Assembly: GCA_015232535.1 (NCBI GenBank)
Contig: JADFZM010000005.1
Span: 1 to 49,452 of the forward strand
Length of the DNA: 49,452 nt
Source of the DNA: Candidatus Omnitrophota bacterium
Lineage (GTDB): Bacteria > Omnitrophota > Gorgyraeia > Zapsychrales > Zapsychraceae
Reading direction: 5' to 3'
Shown: piece by piece, positions 734 to 11,836 of the stretch
Layout: the number at the start of each line of letters is the position of its first letter
Position numbering within the stretch: position 1 is the stretch's first letter
Made by a program: the position numbers and the translations under genes
Notes under the pieces: generated by a model
Database searches by the model: none
Told to the model about the DNA's origin: nothing
The model's input: only the letters and a program-made list of their open reading frames with translations

Positions 734-2059
734 ATGAATAAAATCTCCGCTGGTATCATCGTTTTCTGCCTTTTTATCGGGCTTATCATTTTAAACAAAG
801 ATAAAGTAAAGGAAAAAAGCCCGGATAAAGTTATTCTCTGGCATTGGCTGACCGACCGCGATAAAGTTTTGCAGGAGCTTGCCCGGAAATATAAAGAACA
901 AACCGGGGTAGATGTAGTGGTTGAGTTATACGCTCCGGCCGATTCTTATGTAAGAAAAGTTACAGCCGCCGCACAGGCTAAAATGTTGCCGGACATTTAC
1001 GGAAATGTTGACACAAAAGAAACCTTTGCAAATTATATACGAAGCGGCCAGGTTGCCGATTTAACAAGTTATTTTCAAGCCGACAATCAAGCTTGGGAGG
1101 CAAGCCTTTTCCCAAAAGCGCTGGAGGGAAACCGTTTTTACGAGGATAATATTTATGGAGTAAAGCCCGGTATTTACGGGGTGCCGATAGATGTGACCAA
1201 TATGCAGCTTCTTTATAACAAAAAGCTTTTGGCCAAGGCCGGCTTTCAGAATCCTCCTAAAGATTTCGCGGAATTCATCGGGATGCTGAAGGCCTTGAAG
1301 CGCATCGGTATTCCGGGTTTTGTTTCGGGATGGGGCGAGCTTTGGCTGGTTGATTGTTTTTCTTCAAATTATGCCTTTAACATAATGGGCGAAGCGAAGG
1401 TTATGGCGACATTAAAAGGCGACGTCCCTTATACGGACCCTGACTGGGTCAAGGTGTTTATGGTTTTCAAGGAAATGAAAGATTCCGGGGGATTGGCAGA
1501 AGGGATTATCACCAAGCCTAATAAATATGCCGAGCAGGATTTTGCGCTGGAAAGGGCGGCTTTTGCTTTTAACGGTTCCTGGTGCGTTAATGTTTATTAT
1601 AAGATGAATCCCCGCCTTTCGTACGGGGTTATGCTGCCGCCTCCGGTAAACGATAAATTTCCGATGATGATTTGGGGAAATGGCGGGTCTTCTTTTTCTG
1701 TTAATTATCGCTCAAAGGTAAAAGAGAGGGCCGTTGATTTTCTTAAGTGGATGACGGCAAAAGAACAGCAAGCGCTTTTGGCCAAGGAAACGATGAATCT
1801 CCCCTCAAACCGCGAGGCTGTTGCGGATATTCCTTCGGTCTTGTCCGATTTTACCATGGCTATGGACGCGACGACTCATCCTACCGTATGGAAATATAAC
1901 GAGAACCCGATCGTAGTCGAGCGTTTTTACAAAGGAGTGCAATCGATAATCCTGGGAGACAAAACTCCCGAGACAGTTGCGCAGGAAGTTCAGGAAGAAA
2001 AACAAAAACAGATCGAACGCGAAAAAAGAATTAATAATAGGAAGAACAGGGCGAAATGA
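734..2059 (+). CDS. ABC transporter extracellular sugar-binding protein (family 1-like)
   Basis: 441 aa; N-terminal hydrophobic segment, typical SBP pattern (ILWHWLTDRDKVLQELARKYKEQTGVDV; LLYNKKLLAKAGFQNPPKDFAEF); followed by two permeases. Confidence 0.88.
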   Translation: MNKISAGIIVFCLFIGLIILNKDKVKEKSPDKVILWHWLTDRDKVLQELARKYKEQTGVDVVVELYAPADSYVRKVTAAAQAKMLPDIYGNVDTKETFANYIRSGQVADLTSYFQADNQAWEASLFPKALEGNRFYEDNIYGVKPGIYGVPIDVTNMQLLYNKKLLAKAGFQNPPKDFAEFIGMLKALKRIGIPGFVSGWGELWLVDCFSSNYAFNIMGEAKVMATLKGDVPYTDPDWVKVFMVFKEMKDSGGLAEGIITKPNKYAEQDFALERAAFAFNGSWCVNVYYKMNPRLSYGVMLPPPVNDKFPMMIWGNGGSSFSVNYRSKVKERAVDFLKWMTAKEQQALLAKETMNLPSNREAVADIPSVLSDFTMAMDATTHPTVWKYNENPIVVERFYKGVQSIILGDKTPETVAQEVQEEKQKQIEREKRINNRKNRAK

Positions 2060-2976
2060 CAGACTCTTTTCCTAAAAAGCTTGTCTTCAAAGATTCGCTG
2101 AAAAATTTCCTTTTTGCCTTTCCCGCGATTGCTATATTCTGCATTTTTTATATTGTACCTTTCATTGAGGTTTTTCGGCTGTCTTTAATGGAGTGGAACG
2201 GCACTTTCCCTCCGCCGGAGTTTATCGGCGCGGATAATTTTATCGAGCAGGCCCAAGATAAATTGTGGTGGGGATCGATGGTCAATGCCGGTTTTATAAC
2301 CATTATCGCCCTTACTTTTCAGAATATATTGGCTTTTGCCCTGGCATTGGCTTGCGACCGGGAAATAAAAGCCCGGAGGTTTTACCGGGTTGTTTTCTTT
2401 ATACCTCCGGTCCTTTCGGAAATCGTCGTTGGTATTATCTGGCAGTGGATACTTTATTCGGGGATGCAGGGAGGAGAGCATATCGGGCTTTTAAATTATC
2501 TTTTGGCAAAGACGGGCCTGCCGCACTTAGTTCATAATTGGCTTTCCGACCCTAAAACCGCGCTTGCCTGCATTTCTATCGTACATTGCTGGAAGGGGTT
2601 CGGCTGGGGTTTTGTCCTGTTTTTGGCGGGGCTGCAGACAATTGACAAACAACTTTACGAAGCGGCCAAGGTCGACGGAGCGGGAGGCTGGAATGTATTT
2701 AGGCATATCACTGTTCCGATGATGGCGCCGATTATTGTTGTTGTTATGATATTAACCGTATTGGGTTCGATGCAGATCTTTATTGTGATGATAGCCATGG
2801 TCGGGCAGGGAGGCTTGGCTGATTATACCAGCGTGCCTGTTCTGCAAATATTGTTCTCTATGAACGGCGCCAAGCGTTTCGGCTATGCTTGTTCCCAGTC
2901 GATAATTTTTGGCTTGATATTAATATGTGTTTCGGCGTTTTTTAAAATTATTTCAAACCGCGTAAAGCAGGCATAA
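2056..2976 (+). CDS. ABC sugar transporter permease (MalF/UgpA-like)
   Basis: 306 aa, multiple TM segments, EAA loop 'YEAAKVDGAGGWNVFRHITVPMMAP'; overlaps preceding stop by 4 nt. Confidence 0.9.
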   Translation: MTDSFPKKLVFKDSLKNFLFAFPAIAIFCIFYIVPFIEVFRLSLMEWNGTFPPPEFIGADNFIEQAQDKLWWGSMVNAGFITIIALTFQNILAFALALACDREIKARRFYRVVFFIPPVLSEIVVGIIWQWILYSGMQGGEHIGLLNYLLAKTGLPHLVHNWLSDPKTALACISIVHCWKGFGWGFVLFLAGLQTIDKQLYEAAKVDGAGGWNVFRHITVPMMAPIIVVVMILTVLGSMQIFIVMIAMVGQGGLADYTSVPVLQILFSMNGAKRFGYACSQSIIFGLILICVSAFFKIISNRVKQA

Positions 2977-2979
2977 GGA

Positions 2980-3825
2980 ATGAAAACAACCAATTACCGG
3001 GCGATCAACACCTTCAAGTCGGTGGCCTTACATTCGTTTTTAATTTCGGTGGCGCTAAGCTGCCTTTTTCCTCTTATTTGGATGGTCCGCTCCTCTTTGA
3101 TGGACCCGGAAACTATTTTCACCGAGAAATCCTTGTTCCCTAAAGCGATTAGGCTTGTAAATTATTATAATGCCTGGGCGGAAGGCAATTTTGGGGTTTA
3201 TTTCCTTAACAGTGTTTTGTATACTACGGCGGTTGTGGTCGGCATAGTATTTATCTCGTCTTTAGCCGCTTATGCTTTTTCCCGGCTTAGCTTCCCGGGC
3301 AAGAATATTTTCTTTTACATGTTTGTGGGCGCGATGATGATACCTCTTCCGGGCAGCTTTGTCCCTTTGTATGTTTTAATGAGCAAGCTCGGTTTGCTAA
3401 ACTCCCGGCTGGGATATATACTTTGCATGATAAATGTCGGCTTGCCTTTGAGCATCCTTTTGCTTAAAACATTTTTTGATAAGATGCCTCCGGACTTGGA
3501 GGACGCGGCCCGCATCGACGGCTGCGGCCGCCTGGGAATCTGGTGGCATGTGGCGCTGCCTTTAGCGCGGCCGGCGCTAGCCGTTATTGTGATCTTTAAT
3601 TCTCTAAACGTTTGGAACGAATTTATTTTGGCTATGCTTTTATTGAACGATAAAGCGAAGATGCCTTTACAATTGGGCATAATGACTTTCCAGGGCGCGC
3701 ACAGCGTAGATTATCATCTTTTGATGGCCGGGTTGACGATATCCTCTATACCGGTCATTTTAATCTATCTGGCGATGCAAAAACATATTATAAAAGGCTT
3801 GGCATCAGTGGGGGTCGTCGGGTGA
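2980..3825 (+). CDS. ABC sugar transporter permease (MalG/UgpE-like)
   Basis: 281 aa, EAA loop 'LEDAARIDGCGRLGIWWHVALPLARPALAV'. Confidence 0.9.
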   Translation: MKTTNYRAINTFKSVALHSFLISVALSCLFPLIWMVRSSLMDPETIFTEKSLFPKAIRLVNYYNAWAEGNFGVYFLNSVLYTTAVVVGIVFISSLAAYAFSRLSFPGKNIFFYMFVGAMMIPLPGSFVPLYVLMSKLGLLNSRLGYILCMINVGLPLSILLLKTFFDKMPPDLEDAARIDGCGRLGIWWHVALPLARPALAVIVIFNSLNVWNEFILAMLLLNDKAKMPLQLGIMTFQGAHSVDYHLLMAGLTISSIPVILIYLAMQKHIIKGLASVGVVG

Positions 3826-6233
3826 GAAAATACGCAATTTCCTTCTTTTCCTTAACCGTTCTATTTTGTTTTTTATCTTTTAATGCATGCTCACAGGGTA
3901 ACGCCGAAGTGAGTGTTGATATGACAACGCGCGCTTCGCCGAAAGTTAATCTGGATGAGGGCCTGCAGGCCGGCACAGATTATTCCTCGGAGGTCAAAAA
4001 GCCGGAAATAACTTCCCAGGAACTGATCAAGCAATTATGGGACGCGAATTCGCAGAACAATTTGAAGAAGGTCGAGAAACTGACCGCCAAATGCCTTTCT
4101 TACTACGGCGCGGAAGCCAAAAAAGAGCAAACTCTTTTGAAAGGATTTCCGGCGCGGGGAGAAGAAGATGTTTATCAGTCGCTTAACGACGTGGGGGGCT
4201 GTTTGTTTATTCACGCCGAGGAGCTTAGGGATAACGGGAAAAAGGAGGAAGCCATAAAAGAGTGCCAGGACGTTATAGATAATTACGGCTGGTCTCAGCA
4301 ATGGGACCCTTCGCGCGGCGCGTGGTGGTCGGTCGCCCAAACCTGCCAGGATTTGATCGACGACTTTAACTTTGACGAAACAAAGGAAGAGGCAAAGACC
4401 GAGCGGAAAGAAATCGTCAAGCCGGCACTTTCTGCTCCGGGCAAAGAAAAAGTAATCGATTATACCAAATACGGAAAGTTCAAAGACGTCGGCAAGCCGA
4501 CTTATAAATATTCCATCGCCGATGTCGATGGCTTATCGGCGGCAGTCGGAGAAGGGATTTATCCTAACACATCGGATGTTTACAACAACCCCCGCTATAA
4601 AGAGGTAAAGGCCTCGGGAAGGATGGAAGGCTCTCATTGGGATTTTGTCCGCTCTCCTGATTTGGAGGCGGCTTATTTTAAATGGTCTACCGCGCCTGAG
4701 CCGTGGGGCGTTAAGCTTTTTTATCTGGGATTGATCTTTGAGAAAGCGCAAATGTGGCATGAGGCTTTAAAATCTTACCATTCGATAATAGTACACTTTC
4801 CTAAGACCGTCGCTTGGACTTATTGGCAGACCCCCTGGTATCCGGGGCAGGCGGCTATTGCCAAAATTCGGCATATTCTTAGGATACATCCCGAATTGGG
4901 CTTGGCGGAAAAATGGATGAAGATAGACGTAAAAAACGGTTTTGATAATGACCCAAAAAACGACGAGATCATCACTTTCCCGGGGAAAATAGTAAAAGAG
5001 AACATAATTGACCAAACAAAGGCGCGTTTTAATATCAGGAAAAAAGTCGCCCTAAGGAAAATAAAGAAGACTGTCGGGAAAGGAAAGATAGTCCTTGTAC
5101 AATATGAGAATAACCATTGGCAGTTAATGGTAGCGGGCAAGCCCTATATTATCAAAGGCATAACTTACGCCCCGACGAAAATCGGGCAAAGCCCCGATAA
5201 AGGCACTTTGAAGAATTGGATGGAAGAGGATTCCGACAATAACGGCAAGATAGACGGGCCTTATGACAGCTGGGTTGACGCGAATAAAAATAATCTGCGA
5301 GACGCGGATGAGCCGGTAGTCGGCGATTTTCAATTGATGAAGGAAATGGGAGTTAATACCATCCGCGTTTACGATCAGCCCAATTATAAGGTAAACAAAA
5401 GGCTTCTCAATGATATGTTTAAGAGTTACGGTATAAGGGTTATCTTGGGGAACTTTCTAGGTAAATACGCCATCGGTTCCGGGGCTGATTGGAGCGAGGG
5501 CACGGATTATGATAATCCGACGCATAAAAAGAACATGCTGGAAAACTTGAAAAAAATGGTGCTTGAGCATAAAGACGAGCCGTATCTTCTGATGTGGCTT
5601 TTGGGGAATGAAAATAATTACGGCGTTGCCAGCAATGCCGACAAAAAACCGGAAAGTTATTATAAGTTCGCCGATGAAGCGGCGAGAATGATAAAGAAAA
5701 TAGATCCGAACCATCCGGTCGCGTTAAATAACGGAGATACCCAATATTTGGATATCTTTGCCAAAAATTGCCCGAATGTGGATATATTTACCGGCAATGT
5801 TTACCGCGGCGATTACGGCTTTGGCTCTTTTTGGGAGCAGGTGGCCGATTCCAGCGGCAAGCCGGCCTTTATTACCGAATACGGTTGCCCGGCTTATGCC
5901 GCCCATTTACAACCCGAAGAAAGGGATGAGGCGCAAGCAGAATACCATCGCGGGAACTGGCTGGACATTTCAGATAACAGCGCCGGGTATAGAGACGGCG
6001 TGGGTAATGCCCTGGGCGGCGTTGCTTTTGAGTGGCTGGATGAATGGTGGAAAAATTACCAGCCATACCGGCACGACCGTAAATCAGAGGCGATCGGGCC
6101 TTTCCCCGGAGGTTATTACTTCGAGGAATGGTTCGGGCTTATCAGCCAGGGCAAGGGACAGCACAGCCCGTTTTTGCGCCAGCCGCGGAAAGTTTATTAT
6201 CTTTATAAAGATTTATGGAATGAGGCGAAATAG
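3822..6233 (+). CDS. Lipoprotein with TPR-like Trp-rich N-terminal repeats and a C-terminal clan GH-A (GH2-like) glycosidase domain
   Basis: 803 aa; lipobox-like FNAC; 'LLMWLLGNENNYG' (acid/base Glu region) and 'PAFITEYGCPAY' (nucleophile Glu region); overlaps the upstream permease gene by 4 nt. Confidence 0.75.
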   Translation: MRKYAISFFSLTVLFCFLSFNACSQGNAEVSVDMTTRASPKVNLDEGLQAGTDYSSEVKKPEITSQELIKQLWDANSQNNLKKVEKLTAKCLSYYGAEAKKEQTLLKGFPARGEEDVYQSLNDVGGCLFIHAEELRDNGKKEEAIKECQDVIDNYGWSQQWDPSRGAWWSVAQTCQDLIDDFNFDETKEEAKTERKEIVKPALSAPGKEKVIDYTKYGKFKDVGKPTYKYSIADVDGLSAAVGEGIYPNTSDVYNNPRYKEVKASGRMEGSHWDFVRSPDLEAAYFKWSTAPEPWGVKLFYLGLIFEKAQMWHEALKSYHSIIVHFPKTVAWTYWQTPWYPGQAAIAKIRHILRIHPELGLAEKWMKIDVKNGFDNDPKNDEIITFPGKIVKENIIDQTKARFNIRKKVALRKIKKTVGKGKIVLVQYENNHWQLMVAGKPYIIKGITYAPTKIGQSPDKGTLKNWMEEDSDNNGKIDGPYDSWVDANKNNLRDADEPVVGDFQLMKEMGVNTIRVYDQPNYKVNKRLLNDMFKSYGIRVILGNFLGKYAIGSGADWSEGTDYDNPTHKKNMLENLKKMVLEHKDEPYLLMWLLGNENNYGVASNADKKPESYYKFADEAARMIKKIDPNHPVALNNGDTQYLDIFAKNCPNVDIFTGNVYRGDYGFGSFWEQVADSSGKPAFITEYGCPAYAAHLQPEERDEAQAEYHRGNWLDISDNSAGYRDGVGNALGGVAFEWLDEWWKNYQPYRHDRKSEAIGPFPGGYYFEEWFGLISQGKGQHSPFLRQPRKVYYLYKDLWNEAK

Positions 6234-6505: not shown

Positions 6506-9500
6506 ATGTTCATTAACTCCCAAAGGAAATGCTTTTTTTCGGCAATAGTCAGGTGTTTGCTGCTGACAACGTTCGTCTCAACGGCAATTATCCCTAACAG
6601 TTACGCTCAAAGCATCGATGCGATAAGCTTGCCGGCGGCGGGCGCGATTGTAAATCCTTCGGGGGCTTTTGTGCCGGTGCTTTTGAGGGGGCTAACCGTT
6701 CATCCCGAAAATCCTTTTCGTTTTGATTTTATCGTCGATAGCGGGAATACGGAACTTAACAATGACGAGCTAAAAGCCGAATCACAAAGGCTGGTCAAAT
6801 ATTTTCTCGCCTCAATGACAATTCCCAAAGATGATTTATGGGTCAATCTCTCTCCTTATGAAAAGGGACGGATAATCCCCGATGAGCTTGGTAAAACCGA
6901 GCTCGGACGCGACCTCTTGGCTCAGGATTACCTTTTAAAACAGCTGACAGCCTCTTTGATGTACCCGGAAAACGAATTAGGCAAGAAATTCTGGGAAAAA
7001 GTTTACGCCCGGGCGAAGGAAAAGTTTGATGTGACCGATATCCCGCTTGATACCTTCAATAAAGTCTGGATACTCCCTGATAGCGCCACCGTTTATGAAA
7101 ACGGCAAAAGCGTTTATGTGGTTGAAAGCAAGCTTAAAGTCATGCTGGATGAAGATTACGTAGCAATGGCTAATCAGAAAGCCGTTGAGGAGTCCTTTGT
7201 TTTTGAAAAGGAGGAGTCTAGCAAAGAATCTAAAAACACAATGAAGCAAATTATCCGTGATATTATTTTGCCCGAAATAGAGAAGGAAATAAATACCGGA
7301 AAGAATTTCGCCTTGCTCCGCCAGGTTTACAATTCGCTTATCCTAGCGAAATGGTACAAAGAAACGGTCAAGAAAAGTATTTTAACAAAGGTTTATGTCG
7401 ATAAAAACAAACTAAGCGGCGTCGAGCTGGAGGATAAAAGCTTTAAGGAGCAGATTTATGCCCGTTATATGGAGGCATATAAAAAAGGCGTCTACGACTA
7501 TATAAGGGAAGATTATGATTTGGTAAAAAAGCAGGTTATCCCGCGCAAATATTTCTCCGGCGGATTTAAAAACAGCGATGTCGCTATGTCCGCGACCGGA
7601 GATAGGAGGAGGATTTCCTCCTCAAAGATCGGCGAGCAGTTTAATTTAGGCATTGTCGTCGAGCCGGAAGGGGAGACGGATAAGTCTATGCTGGGCGATG
7701 AAGGGTATTTATTCGAATTCTTTGAAGGGCTCGGGGTATTATCGGAAGGATTAACCGACCAGCAAAAACGCAAAGAAGTGATAAATTTGTTAAATCCTTC
7801 TCCGGCTAATCCTGCCTCGGAGGAAGAAATTTCTCAAGTAATAGCTTCGGATTATTTCAGCGGACCGTATAGAAAGGGCGACACAGAAAATATGGAGCGC
7901 TGGGACAAAGATATCCAATATATGAAAGGTTTATTCGACCGGGAATTGCAAAAGATAAAAGCGGCTGATGGCTTAAATATAGATGAAGATAAAGCCAGAG
8001 GGACATATAGCAAATTAATCGACGCTTTGATTTCGCTAAAAGATTCTTTTGGCAATTCTTATTACTCCGGCCTCACTAATGTTGTTTCAAACAGGATAGT
8101 GACCAGGTTGACAAATTTTGTGTTGCATGGGGTTTCAGAAAACCAGCAGGGAAGTGAAATATTTTCCTCCGTCGCGAGTAAGGCGAATGAAATTGCCCGC
8201 GAAGCACTTAAAAATAGTTTGTTTTCTCAAAAGTTGGAACAATTCTTGCAATCCCGGGATATTGAGGAAAAAACGCACCTGCTTCAAGAAGCGATTCAAA
8301 TTGCCTTATTCGCGGCGGCCCCAAAGGTCTGGTTTTCCGACGTTAATGTCCAAAGAAATACAGGGGAAGCAATAGAACATGTTAGGGCTTTGCAGAAACA
8401 GGCATTGAATATACCTCTTGCTTTAAATTCCGTCAGGCGGTTTATTGAGGAGGTTTTATCCCCGGCAAAACAAAAGGATGTCTTCAAAATTGTCTATTTT
8501 ATCGATGACAACGGCGATTCCATATACCATCTGCATTTTATTCAGGCCTTTCTTAAGGAAAATCCCAATTTGCGGATTTCGGTTGTTGCCAAGAGCGAAA
8601 GAGTCGCGATTGATACCACGGTTGAAGATCTTGATAATGAACTTAAATCTCCGGAGTTTTCATACCTAAAAAGTGAGGTTGGGAAAAGGCTGGTTCTTAT
8701 AAGGGAAGGGCCGTCATACGGCGGAGTGGATTTAAGGCAATCTTCGAGAGAAATGAACCAAGCGCTTATAGAATGTGATGTTGTTGTGGGGGTCGGACAA
8801 ATGGTTACCGAAACTTTGAACGGTATTAAAAAACCTGCTTATCACCAGAGCTATGTTGATTCACAAGTTCATAGAGAAATTACCGGGCTGCCAAGGGGAG
8901 CGTTATATTTTTACAGGGTCTCGCCTGATGCAAAATATTTTGTCGGGTATCCCGTGCAAAAAACACTTTTAGCCGTGGCAACAGATAAGGGTGAGGGCCC
9001 GCGGAACGAGGAAGCCGCACCGCGAGAAGAGGTTGGCTATAAAGCCGAGTCGCCGGTAGAGGCAGATGGCACCGACAAATCGATGCTCAGCATAAGCGCC
9101 CCTTCTCTTTTATTCGCTCCTGACCTTGACGACAAAGTCAGCCCGGAGCAAGTGGAGCAAATTGTTCAACAGGTGGGAATTGGTGGGGTTGAAGTTGCTG
9201 TTATCGCTACCATAGGATTGGGATTAGCAGCTTATATAAATTATTGGGCCAGTCGGAATATGGGTAGAGGCCTGGTTAAAGATTTGCAGGATCCCGAACT
9301 TAAGAAAGAAATTGACCGTGCCCAACTCTCTGAACCCGGAGAGAAGGACACGTCTAATACTACAAGGGTCAATGCCGCCCAGCTGTCTCCGTCTCTGTTA
9401 GAGGCATTAAGAGAATCTGTTATATTGGGAGGAAAATTAGAAGAACAACCGCTGGCGATTAAGCTCAATGATGCAGGGCATTCATTTCCTGATATTCAGC

Positions 9501-11836
9501 ATATTTTAGATGAAAAACCGAAATACTTATTTGAGCGGTCAGAAAAGTTATTATTGCAGGAAGATATAGTGCGGCTTTTTCAAGCCTATATGATTGCCGG
9601 ACAAATAATTGACAGAGTGCGGCAGGGCGGTAATTTAGAAAAAGACTTGGAATATTTTCTTGGCTTAAGAGATTCAGCTTATTATTTTGCTATGGATTTA
9701 TTAGCGGTTATGCTTGATTTGGATAATGAGGCCGTTGAGAAGTTTCTAAGCAGCCTTATAGAGAAGAAAATCGCAAGGGTTAAAAAAGAAGTTATCGAAG
9801 CGAATATAATTTTAGCGTCCCAATCACCTCGGAGAAAAGTCCTTTTAAAAGAAATGCTTATTGTTCGTGAATTTGAGGCGGCCGCTGCGGATATAGATGA
9901 GCATGTATCAGGAGTTTCAACGTATGAAGCGGCTATGCGTGCGATATCCGTTGAGAAAGCATTATCTGTTGCGCAACAAAGAAATGACGGAATCGTGATC
10001 GCGAGTGATACAACGATGTATGTGGAAGGAGATGTTTTGGGCAAGGTGGCGGATGATATAAGTTTTGACGATTATTTAACGGCGCTTGTCGGTTTTGAAA
10101 GAGATCCCGTTAAGGTTGTTTCAAGCGCGGTTGTTTTTGATATTGATAAGGCAACAGTAAGAATAGGCTATGAACAGGCATTTATCAAATTAAGAAACCC
10201 CGAAGAAAGCCTTACCAAGGATGAGTTGGATCTTTTAAGGAAGCTATCCTCTGAAGAGGAATATAAATATTTAAACGATGTCTTATCTTATGAGAATTGG
10301 AGAGTGAAAGATGTCCTTTATGCTTATTGGCAGAAAGGAAAACATAAAAATAAAGCGGGAGGTTTTGGGGTTCAGGATAGGGAATTCTTTCTTGCAGTCA
10401 GTAAGATGACAGGCAATCCTTTTGTTGTTGTGGGCTTTCCGACAAGAATACTGGCCGAATATCTGAAAGGCTCAAATATTATTGTTAGAGACAACTTTGA
10501 AGAGAGCGGAATTATTAGCATGTGGCCTTCTAAGGATGAGCAAGAAAGGATTGTTTCTGGATTATCCGACCGGGCTCAATTATCCAACCCTCCCGGCGGG
10601 ATCGATAAAAACGAGGTCAATATCACTTATACCGGCAAAGACTCCGCGATGTTCGCGGCAATCGAAAGCAGTGATTTTAGGAGGATTTTCCAAGAAGAAG
10701 TTAACGCGGGCAAGGCAAGTTTCGCCCTGATTATGCCGGATGGCTTAGGACAGTCTGAAGAAATAATCGAAGCTTTGAGCCGGGCAGGTTTTGATGCCAG
10801 TTACGGGCCGGTAATGTTTTTTTCTGAAAAGATGGCCGAGGAGTTCTACCAAGGACGGGAGGGAAATCCTTTGTTCGCGAAAATGGTTAAAAAGATTACC
10901 TCTAACGGAGTGGTTCCGCTTTTTGTTTACTCCCAATCCACCGGCACGGCTGACAGATTAAAAGAGGCAATTAACGAGCTTGGTATTCAGGCTCACAACG
11001 GAAAGGCCGATGTATTGATCCAAGCCGCGAGTTCGGTCGAAACAGCATTGAAAGAAGCGGAATTGATTTATGGCTTTATTGATAAGAAAATATCTCAAAG
11101 AAATAATGTAACCTTGACAAAAGACACTGAATCCCGGCTTATAAACGAATATATCCGCCGATTGCGTTCTTTTGTTTACGAATTGGATGAAGGACCCTGT
11201 TTATTTGATAAGGCCAATGCCATAGTAAGCCTGGGGGAAATAGGCTCGGCCGCGAAAGAAGCGGTGCCTGATTTGGTTAGTATAATCCTGGAAAGCAGTT
11301 CCTTTATTTTAAGAGCGCACGCTATTTCTACGCTGGGGAAAATTGGAGTTGCTTCGGAGGAAGTAAAAGAAGCCATATTGAAAGTTATCCAAGAGCACGG
11401 GTCGGACAGCTTAGGAGAAATTGCGATTGGTGTTTATATGGATTTACTAAGACGACCAAAACAGCCCCCATTAGACCAGGCGATGCTGGGGGCCTCTGAG
11501 GATGTTACGCTGATCGGCGCTCTTCAGGATAAAGTAATTTCTGTCCATGCCGCAAATGCGAAAGGATCCGATAAATCTGAAAGCAAGAAAGACGAGGCAA
11601 TGTTGACAGAGAATAAAAGTGTCGGCGGGATCGATATGAACGAGATAAATATCAAGCATAGCGGCAATGGGGCGGAGATTGAATTCTTTCCGCAAGGGCC
11701 GGGTAATATAATGCTTGATAATATCGAAGGGTTTAAACCGGTTATCATACATTTAACTCCGATCCAAAGCGTATTGCCGATTTTAGGATTGGAAGAGCCG
11801 AAAGAGGAAAAGGAGGAAATGCTGGCGGCGATATAA
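6506..11836 (+). CDS. Exported 1776-aa mosaic protein with DUF89-like, Maf-like, NDP-kinase-like and HEAT-like segments separated by D-x-[AS]-[MQ]-[LF] motifs
   Basis: Single long ORF; N-terminal signal peptide (CLLLTTFVSTAIIPNSYAQS); segment patterns and repeated hexapeptide read from the translation (see findings). Confidence 0.85.
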   Translation: MFINSQRKCFFSAIVRCLLLTTFVSTAIIPNSYAQSIDAISLPAAGAIVNPSGAFVPVLLRGLTVHPENPFRFDFIVDSGNTELNNDELKAESQRLVKYFLASMTIPKDDLWVNLSPYEKGRIIPDELGKTELGRDLLAQDYLLKQLTASLMYPENELGKKFWEKVYARAKEKFDVTDIPLDTFNKVWILPDSATVYENGKSVYVVESKLKVMLDEDYVAMANQKAVEESFVFEKEESSKESKNTMKQIIRDIILPEIEKEINTGKNFALLRQVYNSLILAKWYKETVKKSILTKVYVDKNKLSGVELEDKSFKEQIYARYMEAYKKGVYDYIREDYDLVKKQVIPRKYFSGGFKNSDVAMSATGDRRRISSSKIGEQFNLGIVVEPEGETDKSMLGDEGYLFEFFEGLGVLSEGLTDQQKRKEVINLLNPSPANPASEEEISQVIASDYFSGPYRKGDTENMERWDKDIQYMKGLFDRELQKIKAADGLNIDEDKARGTYSKLIDALISLKDSFGNSYYSGLTNVVSNRIVTRLTNFVLHGVSENQQGSEIFSSVASKANEIAREALKNSLFSQKLEQFLQSRDIEEKTHLLQEAIQIALFAAAPKVWFSDVNVQRNTGEAIEHVRALQKQALNIPLALNSVRRFIEEVLSPAKQKDVFKIVYFIDDNGDSIYHLHFIQAFLKENPNLRISVVAKSERVAIDTTVEDLDNELKSPEFSYLKSEVGKRLVLIREGPSYGGVDLRQSSREMNQALIECDVVVGVGQMVTETLNGIKKPAYHQSYVDSQVHREITGLPRGALYFYRVSPDAKYFVGYPVQKTLLAVATDKGEGPRNEEAAPREEVGYKAESPVEADGTDKSMLSISAPSLLFAPDLDDKVSPEQVEQIVQQVGIGGVEVAVIATIGLGLAAYINYWASRNMGRGLVKDLQDPELKKEIDRAQLSEPGEKDTSNTTRVNAAQLSPSLLEALRESVILGGKLEEQPLAIKLNDAGHSFPDIQHILDEKPKYLFERSEKLLLQEDIVRLFQAYMIAGQIIDRVRQGGNLEKDLEYFLGLRDSAYYFAMDLLAVMLDLDNEAVEKFLSSLIEKKIARVKKEVIEANIILASQSPRRKVLLKEMLIVREFEAAAADIDEHVSGVSTYEAAMRAISVEKALSVAQQRNDGIVIASDTTMYVEGDVLGKVADDISFDDYLTALVGFERDPVKVVSSAVVFDIDKATVRIGYEQAFIKLRNPEESLTKDELDLLRKLSSEEEYKYLNDVLSYENWRVKDVLYAYWQKGKHKNKAGGFGVQDREFFLAVSKMTGNPFVVVGFPTRILAEYLKGSNIIVRDNFEESGIISMWPSKDEQERIVSGLSDRAQLSNPPGGIDKNEVNITYTGKDSAMFAAIESSDFRRIFQEEVNAGKASFALIMPDGLGQSEEIIEALSRAGFDASYGPVMFFSEKMAEEFYQGREGNPLFAKMVKKITSNGVVPLFVYSQSTGTADRLKEAINELGIQAHNGKADVLIQAASSVETALKEAELIYGFIDKKISQRNNVTLTKDTESRLINEYIRRLRSFVYELDEGPCLFDKANAIVSLGEIGSAAKEAVPDLVSIILESSSFILRAHAISTLGKIGVASEEVKEAILKVIQEHGSDSLGEIAIGVYMDLLRRPKQPPLDQAMLGASEDVTLIGALQDKVISVHAANAKGSDKSESKKDEAMLTENKSVGGIDMNEINIKHSGNGAEIEFFPQGPGNIMLDNIEGFKPVIIHLTPIQSVLPILGLEEPKEEKEEMLAAI

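Follow-up and report, generated by a model that had tools for sequence, protein, structure and literature searches.

Omnitrophota are abundant uncultured bacteria that are suspected to be predators or symbionts. Giant ORFs of more than 20 kb have been published from this phylum and called poorly understood or obscure; those treated there have TM helices and adhesion or dockerin domains, and little else in them is annotated (Seymour et al. 2023, PMC10066038). In eukaryotes, TPI-GAPDH fusions combine two enzymes with mitochondrial targeting (PMC3527533), and hexokinases of microsporidia are secreted by signal peptides and are thought to act on host metabolism (PMC6460350). The gene studied here lies in a stretch of 49,452 nucleotides from a Candidatus Omnitrophota bacterium (contig JADFZM010000005.1, positions 1 to 49,452, hereafter the window); its host belongs to the same phylum as the published giants, but its ORF spans 5.3 kb, short of the >20 kb by which they were delimited. 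A first-pass annotation made from the DNA letters had noted eight in-frame hexapeptides in this ORF under the pattern D-x-[AS]-[MQ]-[LF]-[SGTA]. All eight were found exactly where it had placed them, and the pattern with D in first place describes seven of them and does not fit NAAQLS (9371). The features of the gene are:

6506..11836, plus strand: giant mosaic protein gene, an open frame of 1776 aa from ATG to TAA
6506..6607, plus strand: predicted signal peptide, aa 1-34, cut predicted after SYA and before Q (sequence, homologues, model)
6608..7564, plus strand: conserved N-terminal domain, aa 35-353, ending RKYFSGG (homologues, profile and fold searches)
7679..7696, plus strand: seam motif DKSMLG in a predicted disordered stretch behind the N-domain (sequence, pLDDT)
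8123..8839, plus strand: ARMT1/DUF89-like module (damage-control phosphatase-like), aa 540-778 (Pfam E 1e-11)
9074..9091, plus strand: seam motif DKSMLS (sequence)
9173..9229, plus strand: possible TM helix, aa 890-908, the sole strongly hydrophobic internal segment (sequence)
9314..9331, plus strand: seam motif DRAQLS (sequence)
9371..9388, plus strand: degenerate seam motif NAAQLS (sequence)
9803..10465, plus strand: Maf-like module, aa 1100-1320, in two matched halves (Pfam 8e-25, aa 1100-1229 and second half)
10568..10585, plus strand: seam motif DRAQLS (sequence)
10586..10639, plus strand: putative internal remnant of a C-terminal tail, NPPGGIDKNEVNITYTGK, also given as NPPGGIDKNEVNI (sequence; cf. 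A3)
10640..10657, plus strand: seam motif DSAMFA (sequence)
10718..10930, plus strand: NDPK-like module, aa 1405-1475, homologous to modules in giants L022 and L091 (Pfam NDK 2e-7)
11210..11395, plus strand: HEAT-like repeats, aa 1569-1630 (Pfam HEAT_2 1e-5, under its curated cut-off)
11474..11491, plus strand: seam motif DQAMLG (sequence)
11591..11608, plus strand: seam motif DEAMLT, 11 residues upstream of the C-terminal tail (sequence)
11624..11833, plus strand: conserved C-terminal tail GGIDMNEINI...KPVIIHLTPIQSVLPILGL..., aa 1707-1776 (homologues)

The hexapeptides start at aa 392, 857, 937, 956, 1355, 1379, 1657 and 1696, and the model gives a pLDDT below 50 for aa 374-402 around the first of them. 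The segments named in the first-pass annotation are real, as Pfam places ARMT1/DUF89, Maf, NDK and a sub-threshold HEAT_2 where it had put them. Its reading of the protein as signal-peptide-bearing also stands at the level of prediction: the N-terminus reads ...NSYA/QS (slash at the predicted cut) with a hydrophobic stretch at aa 9-27 and a predicted SPase I site, the modelled structure has a helix at 3-28, and A34 and Q35 of this site are near-invariant, being kept in at least 90% of 81 homologues. The Maf-like module keeps SQSPRR and SDT, and the ARMT1/DUF89-like module recurs in another giant, L032. The NDPK-like module (10718-11086) has lost the HxSDS motif with the catalytic His, which is kept in L022 and L091 (a by-eye comparison with P0001 is among the bases of this statement), and this suggests that some cargo is eroded or exapted. 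The tail remnant directly behind a seam motif suggests, moreover, that the window protein arose from an old fusion of two giants. Directly upstream of the gene, window positions 734-6230 hold a sugar-type ABC transporter (binding protein and two permeases) and, behind it, a GH2/GH72-like protein; downstream lie a LacI-type regulator and mnmG.

It is also evident that the motif is not a matter of one protein, to which the first-pass annotation had confined it; it belongs to a large family with conserved ends. Members share an N-terminal region of about 350 aa, signal peptide included, and a C-terminal tail of about 70 aa, and both ends are carried by 70 of the 83 complete ORFs that have either one. 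The N-domain consensus runs from WVNLSPYE... through to RKYFSGG, and that of the C-tail is GGID[LMF]N...PVIINITPI..LPLLLG, with charged residues after LLG and without a basic end. About twenty such genes occur in the genome of the window and hundreds across the phylum. The C-terminal 81 aa of the window protein match 20 places in its own genome, nearly all of them long frames (401-4763 aa), and about 20 genes, additional to or overlapping with these, align to the first 360 aa or so at 44-66% identity. Complete members span 706-4558 aa; one longer frame, of 8222 aa, holds an embedded PGK. In a slice of 10 kb, L083 (G000:C124) is a frame open at both ends with more than 3333 aa and several motifs, an even larger giant whose ends are missing from the slice. 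A scan of 85,462 species genomes with the N-domain gave more than 500 confirmed matches, and 78 of the best 80 among these lie in records named Omnitrophota or its candidate genera, the lineage being read from record names and checked for one locus. In a sample of 286 genomes of the phylum the N-domain is found in 90, and in almost all of those from the same order; of 29 genomes from the same family, 28 have the C-tail, with up to 36 copies each. The N-domain matches no Pfam or NCBIfam model in profile searches, and although its own predicted model is good (pLDDT 77, pTM 0.75), that model matches no PDB fold at E ≤ 0.001; as far as found, it appears to be specific to Omnitrophota. The C-tail has no Pfam match, and its model is weak (131 residues, pTM 0.21, no strands, no confident fold). 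A viral origin of the N-domain was rejected, only three IMG/VR contigs carrying it. These contigs (L187, L188 and L189) have the Omnitrophota N-domain at 53% identity, and it is probably host sequence or the flank of a mis-called provirus.

Between these ends lies swappable cargo, which in the window protein consists of the DUF89/ARMT1-, Maf-, NDPK- and HEAT-like modules. Across the scanned giants, the cargo comprises PGI, PFK, class I and class II aldolase, TIM, GAPDH, PGK, enolase and PGM, together with PPDK, isocitrate lyase, malate synthase, a UDP-glucose pyrophosphorylase-like module, acyl-CoA dehydrogenase and an HMGL-like module. It also includes NAD synthase, CMP kinase, NDK, Maf, Nudix, ARMT1, ABC1 kinase, methyltransferase and aminotransferase, as well as MutS-V, M48, LysM, FHA, HEAT, WD40, ankyrin and GH116. 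In some relatives PGK, enolase, GAPDH, TIM, the aldolases, PGI, PPDK, isocitrate lyase and malate synthase are whole. An embedded enolase keeps the equivalents of E168, E211, D246, E295, D320, K345 and K396 together with SHRSGETED (alignment read by eye), and the second GAPDH of L117 keeps NASCTTN (SCTTN) and TTVH with the catalytic His; cargo enzymes with such residues are plausibly active. One giant (L125, 4486-15672) holds malate synthase and isocitrate lyase, that is, both enzymes of the glyoxylate shunt. Among the 55 genomes of the order, nearly all have a cytosolic PGK and at least nine have a giant-embedded PGK besides; GAPDH and TIM follow the same pattern, with rarer embedded copies. 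The embedded PGKs are divergent and patchily distributed and form several long branches in the PGK tree. A recent duplication of the cytosolic PGK was rejected as their source, since a branch supported at 97/96 divides the two kinds in the tree. An ATP/ADP translocase, which would hint at energy parasitism, had no match in the 55 genomes of the order or in control genomes.

The first-pass annotation had proposed to weigh the motif against shuffled proteins and to scan related genomes, and in both comparisons it is in large excess: the giants of the same genome hold 58 matches in 31 paralogous ORFs (56,370 aa), where shuffles give 1.03 and at most 4, and giants of other Omnitrophota hold 41 in 160,269 aa, where shuffles give 3.2 and at most 7. 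In the latter the core D-x-A-M occurs 158 times versus 19 in shuffles, whereas ordinary ORFs of the same loci are at chance level (4 versus 3.1). A genome-wide DNA pattern for D-x-A-M-[L/F]-[SGTA...] gives 55 matches and its reversed control 1; judged from their contigs and positions, all but one of the 55 (54) belong to giant ORFs, some of these giants being cut at both contig ends. The core is better written as D-x-[AS]-[MQ]-[L/T/V/M]-[S/A/G/T], with Q instead of M at position 4 in about a fifth of copies, and conservation is limited to these six residues without conserved flanks. The median spacing of 387 aa corresponds to a domain-sized unit. Position 5 differs between genomes: among unrelated giants its identity is 0.44 within a genome versus 0.15 between genomes (0 of 200 permutations), and 0.19 versus 0.12 when the genome of the window is left out, which is weaker (6 of 200 permutations).

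The earlier proposal that the motif lies between unrelated domains, and not within folded cores, holds up as well. None of the 53 motifs of the middle regions lies inside a Pfam domain, whereas 11.9 would be expected (P = 1.4e-6) with 22.5% of these regions taken up by domains (domain limits from Pfam matches, one GAPDH limit from a paralogue alignment). Alignments between giants end within 5 aa of a motif in 19 of 169 cases, as compared with 2.6 ± 1.8 in 500 randomisations (maximum 10), and domain edges in general are enriched about twofold near motifs (11 versus 5). The flanks of the motif are low in order-promoting residues (0.24 versus 0.32). Individual junctions show the same. L117, from Candidatus Zapsychrus exili, runs N-domain, DQAMVA, GAPDH, GAPDH, DQAMVA, PGK, DQAMTT, enolase, DKAMVA and then a class II aldolase-like stretch, and the motif begins where the native C-terminus of PGK ends (cytosolic ...LPGITALADKK and stop, embedded ...LPGIVALSDKA-DQAMTT). 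L028, in the genome of the window, passes from PGK to enolase as ...LPGISVLT-DAAMLS-SLGGTKLAKFEASETMDSR; in L136 TIM reaches as far as 815, and DSAMLS, from 817 on, stands before an isocitrate lyase-like module. A module common to L029 and L031 is flanked by motifs on both sides in each, and L125 has about a dozen copies of D-x-A-[MQ]. L033 (1-5235) consists of near-identical internal blocks, every one ending ADAAGKSASSG-DPAMLS, so that the motif forms part of the module that was duplicated in tandem. At seams the motif is enriched in part: it is found at 10 of 19 N-junctions and 9 of 20 C-junctions in the genome of the window, and at 54 of 95 and 33 of 81 in other genomes, and is thus missing from about half of them. 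Because many junctions lack it, as do both edges of the embedded PGKs of L090, L158 and L170, cutting at the motif cannot be universal.

The architecture itself, with export signal, twin ends, cargo modules and seam motif, is highly probable from the sequences. A predicted signal peptide and the conserved N-domain open the chain and the conserved, apparently unfolded tail closes it; between them stands interchangeable cargo, including many whole central-carbon enzymes of cytosolic type, some of which keep their catalytic residues; and predicted exposed linkers with D-x-A-M-(L/T/V)-(S/A/G) often join the modules, the motif being found behind the N-domain and before the C-tail as well. Once the protein is exported, the ends may serve as targeting elements. 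A trans-acting factor encoded in the genome, most likely a peptidase, would then read the seam and release the cargo, and the enzymes so released would act in the periplasm, at the surface or in a partner cell; work outside the cytoplasm is suggested because separate copies are retained in the cytosol. A fifth residue that is shared within a genome and differs between genomes is expected of a co-evolving reader (a peptidase or a binding partner), although module exchange within genomes could also produce it. Together with the evidence that the seam is maintained at the protein level, this favors cargo release by a trans-acting peptidase after export. The cutting itself is a step that we infer, and for all steps together, in which polyprotein-like carriers of cargo are exported and such a peptidase reads their exposed seams, our probability is about 0.45.

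The main rival is a seam that stays uncut, the giants being stable multi-enzyme or structural scaffolds (coat, adhesin or predation apparatus) and the motif a preferred hinge or docking site. This is possible, if less probable than release: the motif flanks are linker-like with predicted disorder, scaffold-type repeats (HEAT, WD40, ankyrin, LysM) are among the modules, some enzyme modules are degenerate, and the report on Omnitrophota giant ORFs proposes them as adhesins or coats (PMC10066038). A plain hinge, however, needs neither D at position 1, a fixed M or Q at position 4 nor a genome-specific fifth residue, and the conservation ends sharply at six residues. A second alternative is that the exchange of modules took place at seams in the DNA and left the hexapeptide as a scar, an inherited memory at the codon level that does little for the protein. 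The codons of the motif do carry more G/C at third positions than each gene's own usage predicts (163 versus 111.5 expected, z 6.5; z 4.4 in other species), with the consensus GAC NNG GCG ATG CTG; the excess includes the free x codon and is limited to the motif, the 20 codons on either side being exactly at expectation, and alignment blocks between giants stop at the motif. Yet 43 of 44 motif 18-mers are distinct, the DNA flanking the copies is at random identity (0.26-0.29), and conservation across genera in fast-diverging proteins requires constraint. Moreover, the word GAYNNNGCNATG is in frame 0 in 65 of 65 cases; as it occurs almost solely in that frame, selection acts on the protein, and a scar is improbable. 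A DNA repeat or mobile element was rejected on the random flanks, the single frame and the distinct 18-mers, with the codon bias left over; repeats of the Rickettsia palindromic-element type are conserved in DNA beyond the peptide and have copies in several frames, unlike the seam motif in both respects. The bias may reflect a codon memory of common origin or a constraint at the nucleotide level; it hints at a nucleotide-level history that the cargo-release model does not need.

Very improbable is the use of the motif M as an internal translation start from which modules would be made separately as cytosolic proteins too. The motif does stand directly before the native start of some modules (the PGK of L117), but this reading was rejected since Shine-Dalgarno-like words are not in excess upstream of motif M (8.6% versus 11.6% for other internal M); in addition, Q replaces M in the fraction of copies given above, and separate cytosolic copies exist. 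That these are ordinary multidomain secreted proteins in which the motif recurs by chance or composition, as short motifs do in long proteins, has next to no probability and is refuted by the shuffles (58 versus 1.0), the control ORFs and the enrichment in proteins not used to draw the motif.

A more far-reaching version of cargo release holds that exported polyproteins cleaved at D-x-A-M supply the surroundings of the cell, or the interior of a partner cell, with a second central carbon metabolism (PGI, PFK, aldolase, TIM, GAPDH, PGK, enolase, PPDK, isocitrate lyase and malate synthase), by way of the N-domain and C-tail as an export pair and a dedicated peptidase; this we regard as unlikely. 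In any case, part of the cargo of the giants becomes recognisable as metabolic enzymes behind signal peptides, and their function becomes directly testable through cutting at D-x-A-M, through their destination and through the role of GAPDH, PGK and enolase outside the cytoplasm. Literature searches, in which subscription journals were thinly covered, found no description of the twin-ended family, the seam motif or exported glycolytic cargo, in line with the first-pass annotation, which knew of no system of this type.

Polyproteins, viral and others, are similar in having several functional modules per chain and a short recurring motif in exposed linkers; the giants differ by a predicted signal peptide and dedicated end sequences, in the chain of the window protein no protease domain was recognised (M48 peptidase-like modules occur in a few giants), and cleavage would be a matter of the model. 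Sorting systems such as the T9SS CTD, PEP-CTERM/exosortase and LPXTG/sortase likewise combine a short conserved C-terminus and a signal peptide with very diverse cargo. However, the tail of the giants has no LPXTG or PEP motif, TM helix or basic tail, and as regards the Ig-like beta fold of the T9SS CTD it has no Pfam match, and its weak model shows no strands and no confident fold of this kind. The TPI-GAPDH fusions share with the giants consecutive glycolytic enzymes in one polypeptide and an N-terminal targeting signal (PMC3527533), whereas the giants have a predicted export signal, up to four or five domains of glycolytic type, unrelated modules and the seam motif. With the microsporidian hexokinases (PMC6460350) they have in common a signal peptide, predicted in the giants, for the export of otherwise cytosolic enzymes; the hexokinases are single enzymes of a eukaryotic parasite, and the analogy is one of function without homology. 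The published giants of the phylum itself are also very long ORFs predicted to be extracytoplasmic and many per genome, although the available part of that report describes no twin-terminus family, seam motif or central-metabolism cargo (PMC10066038); among these obscure giants, the N-domain, C-tail and seam motif mark out a defined and searchable family.
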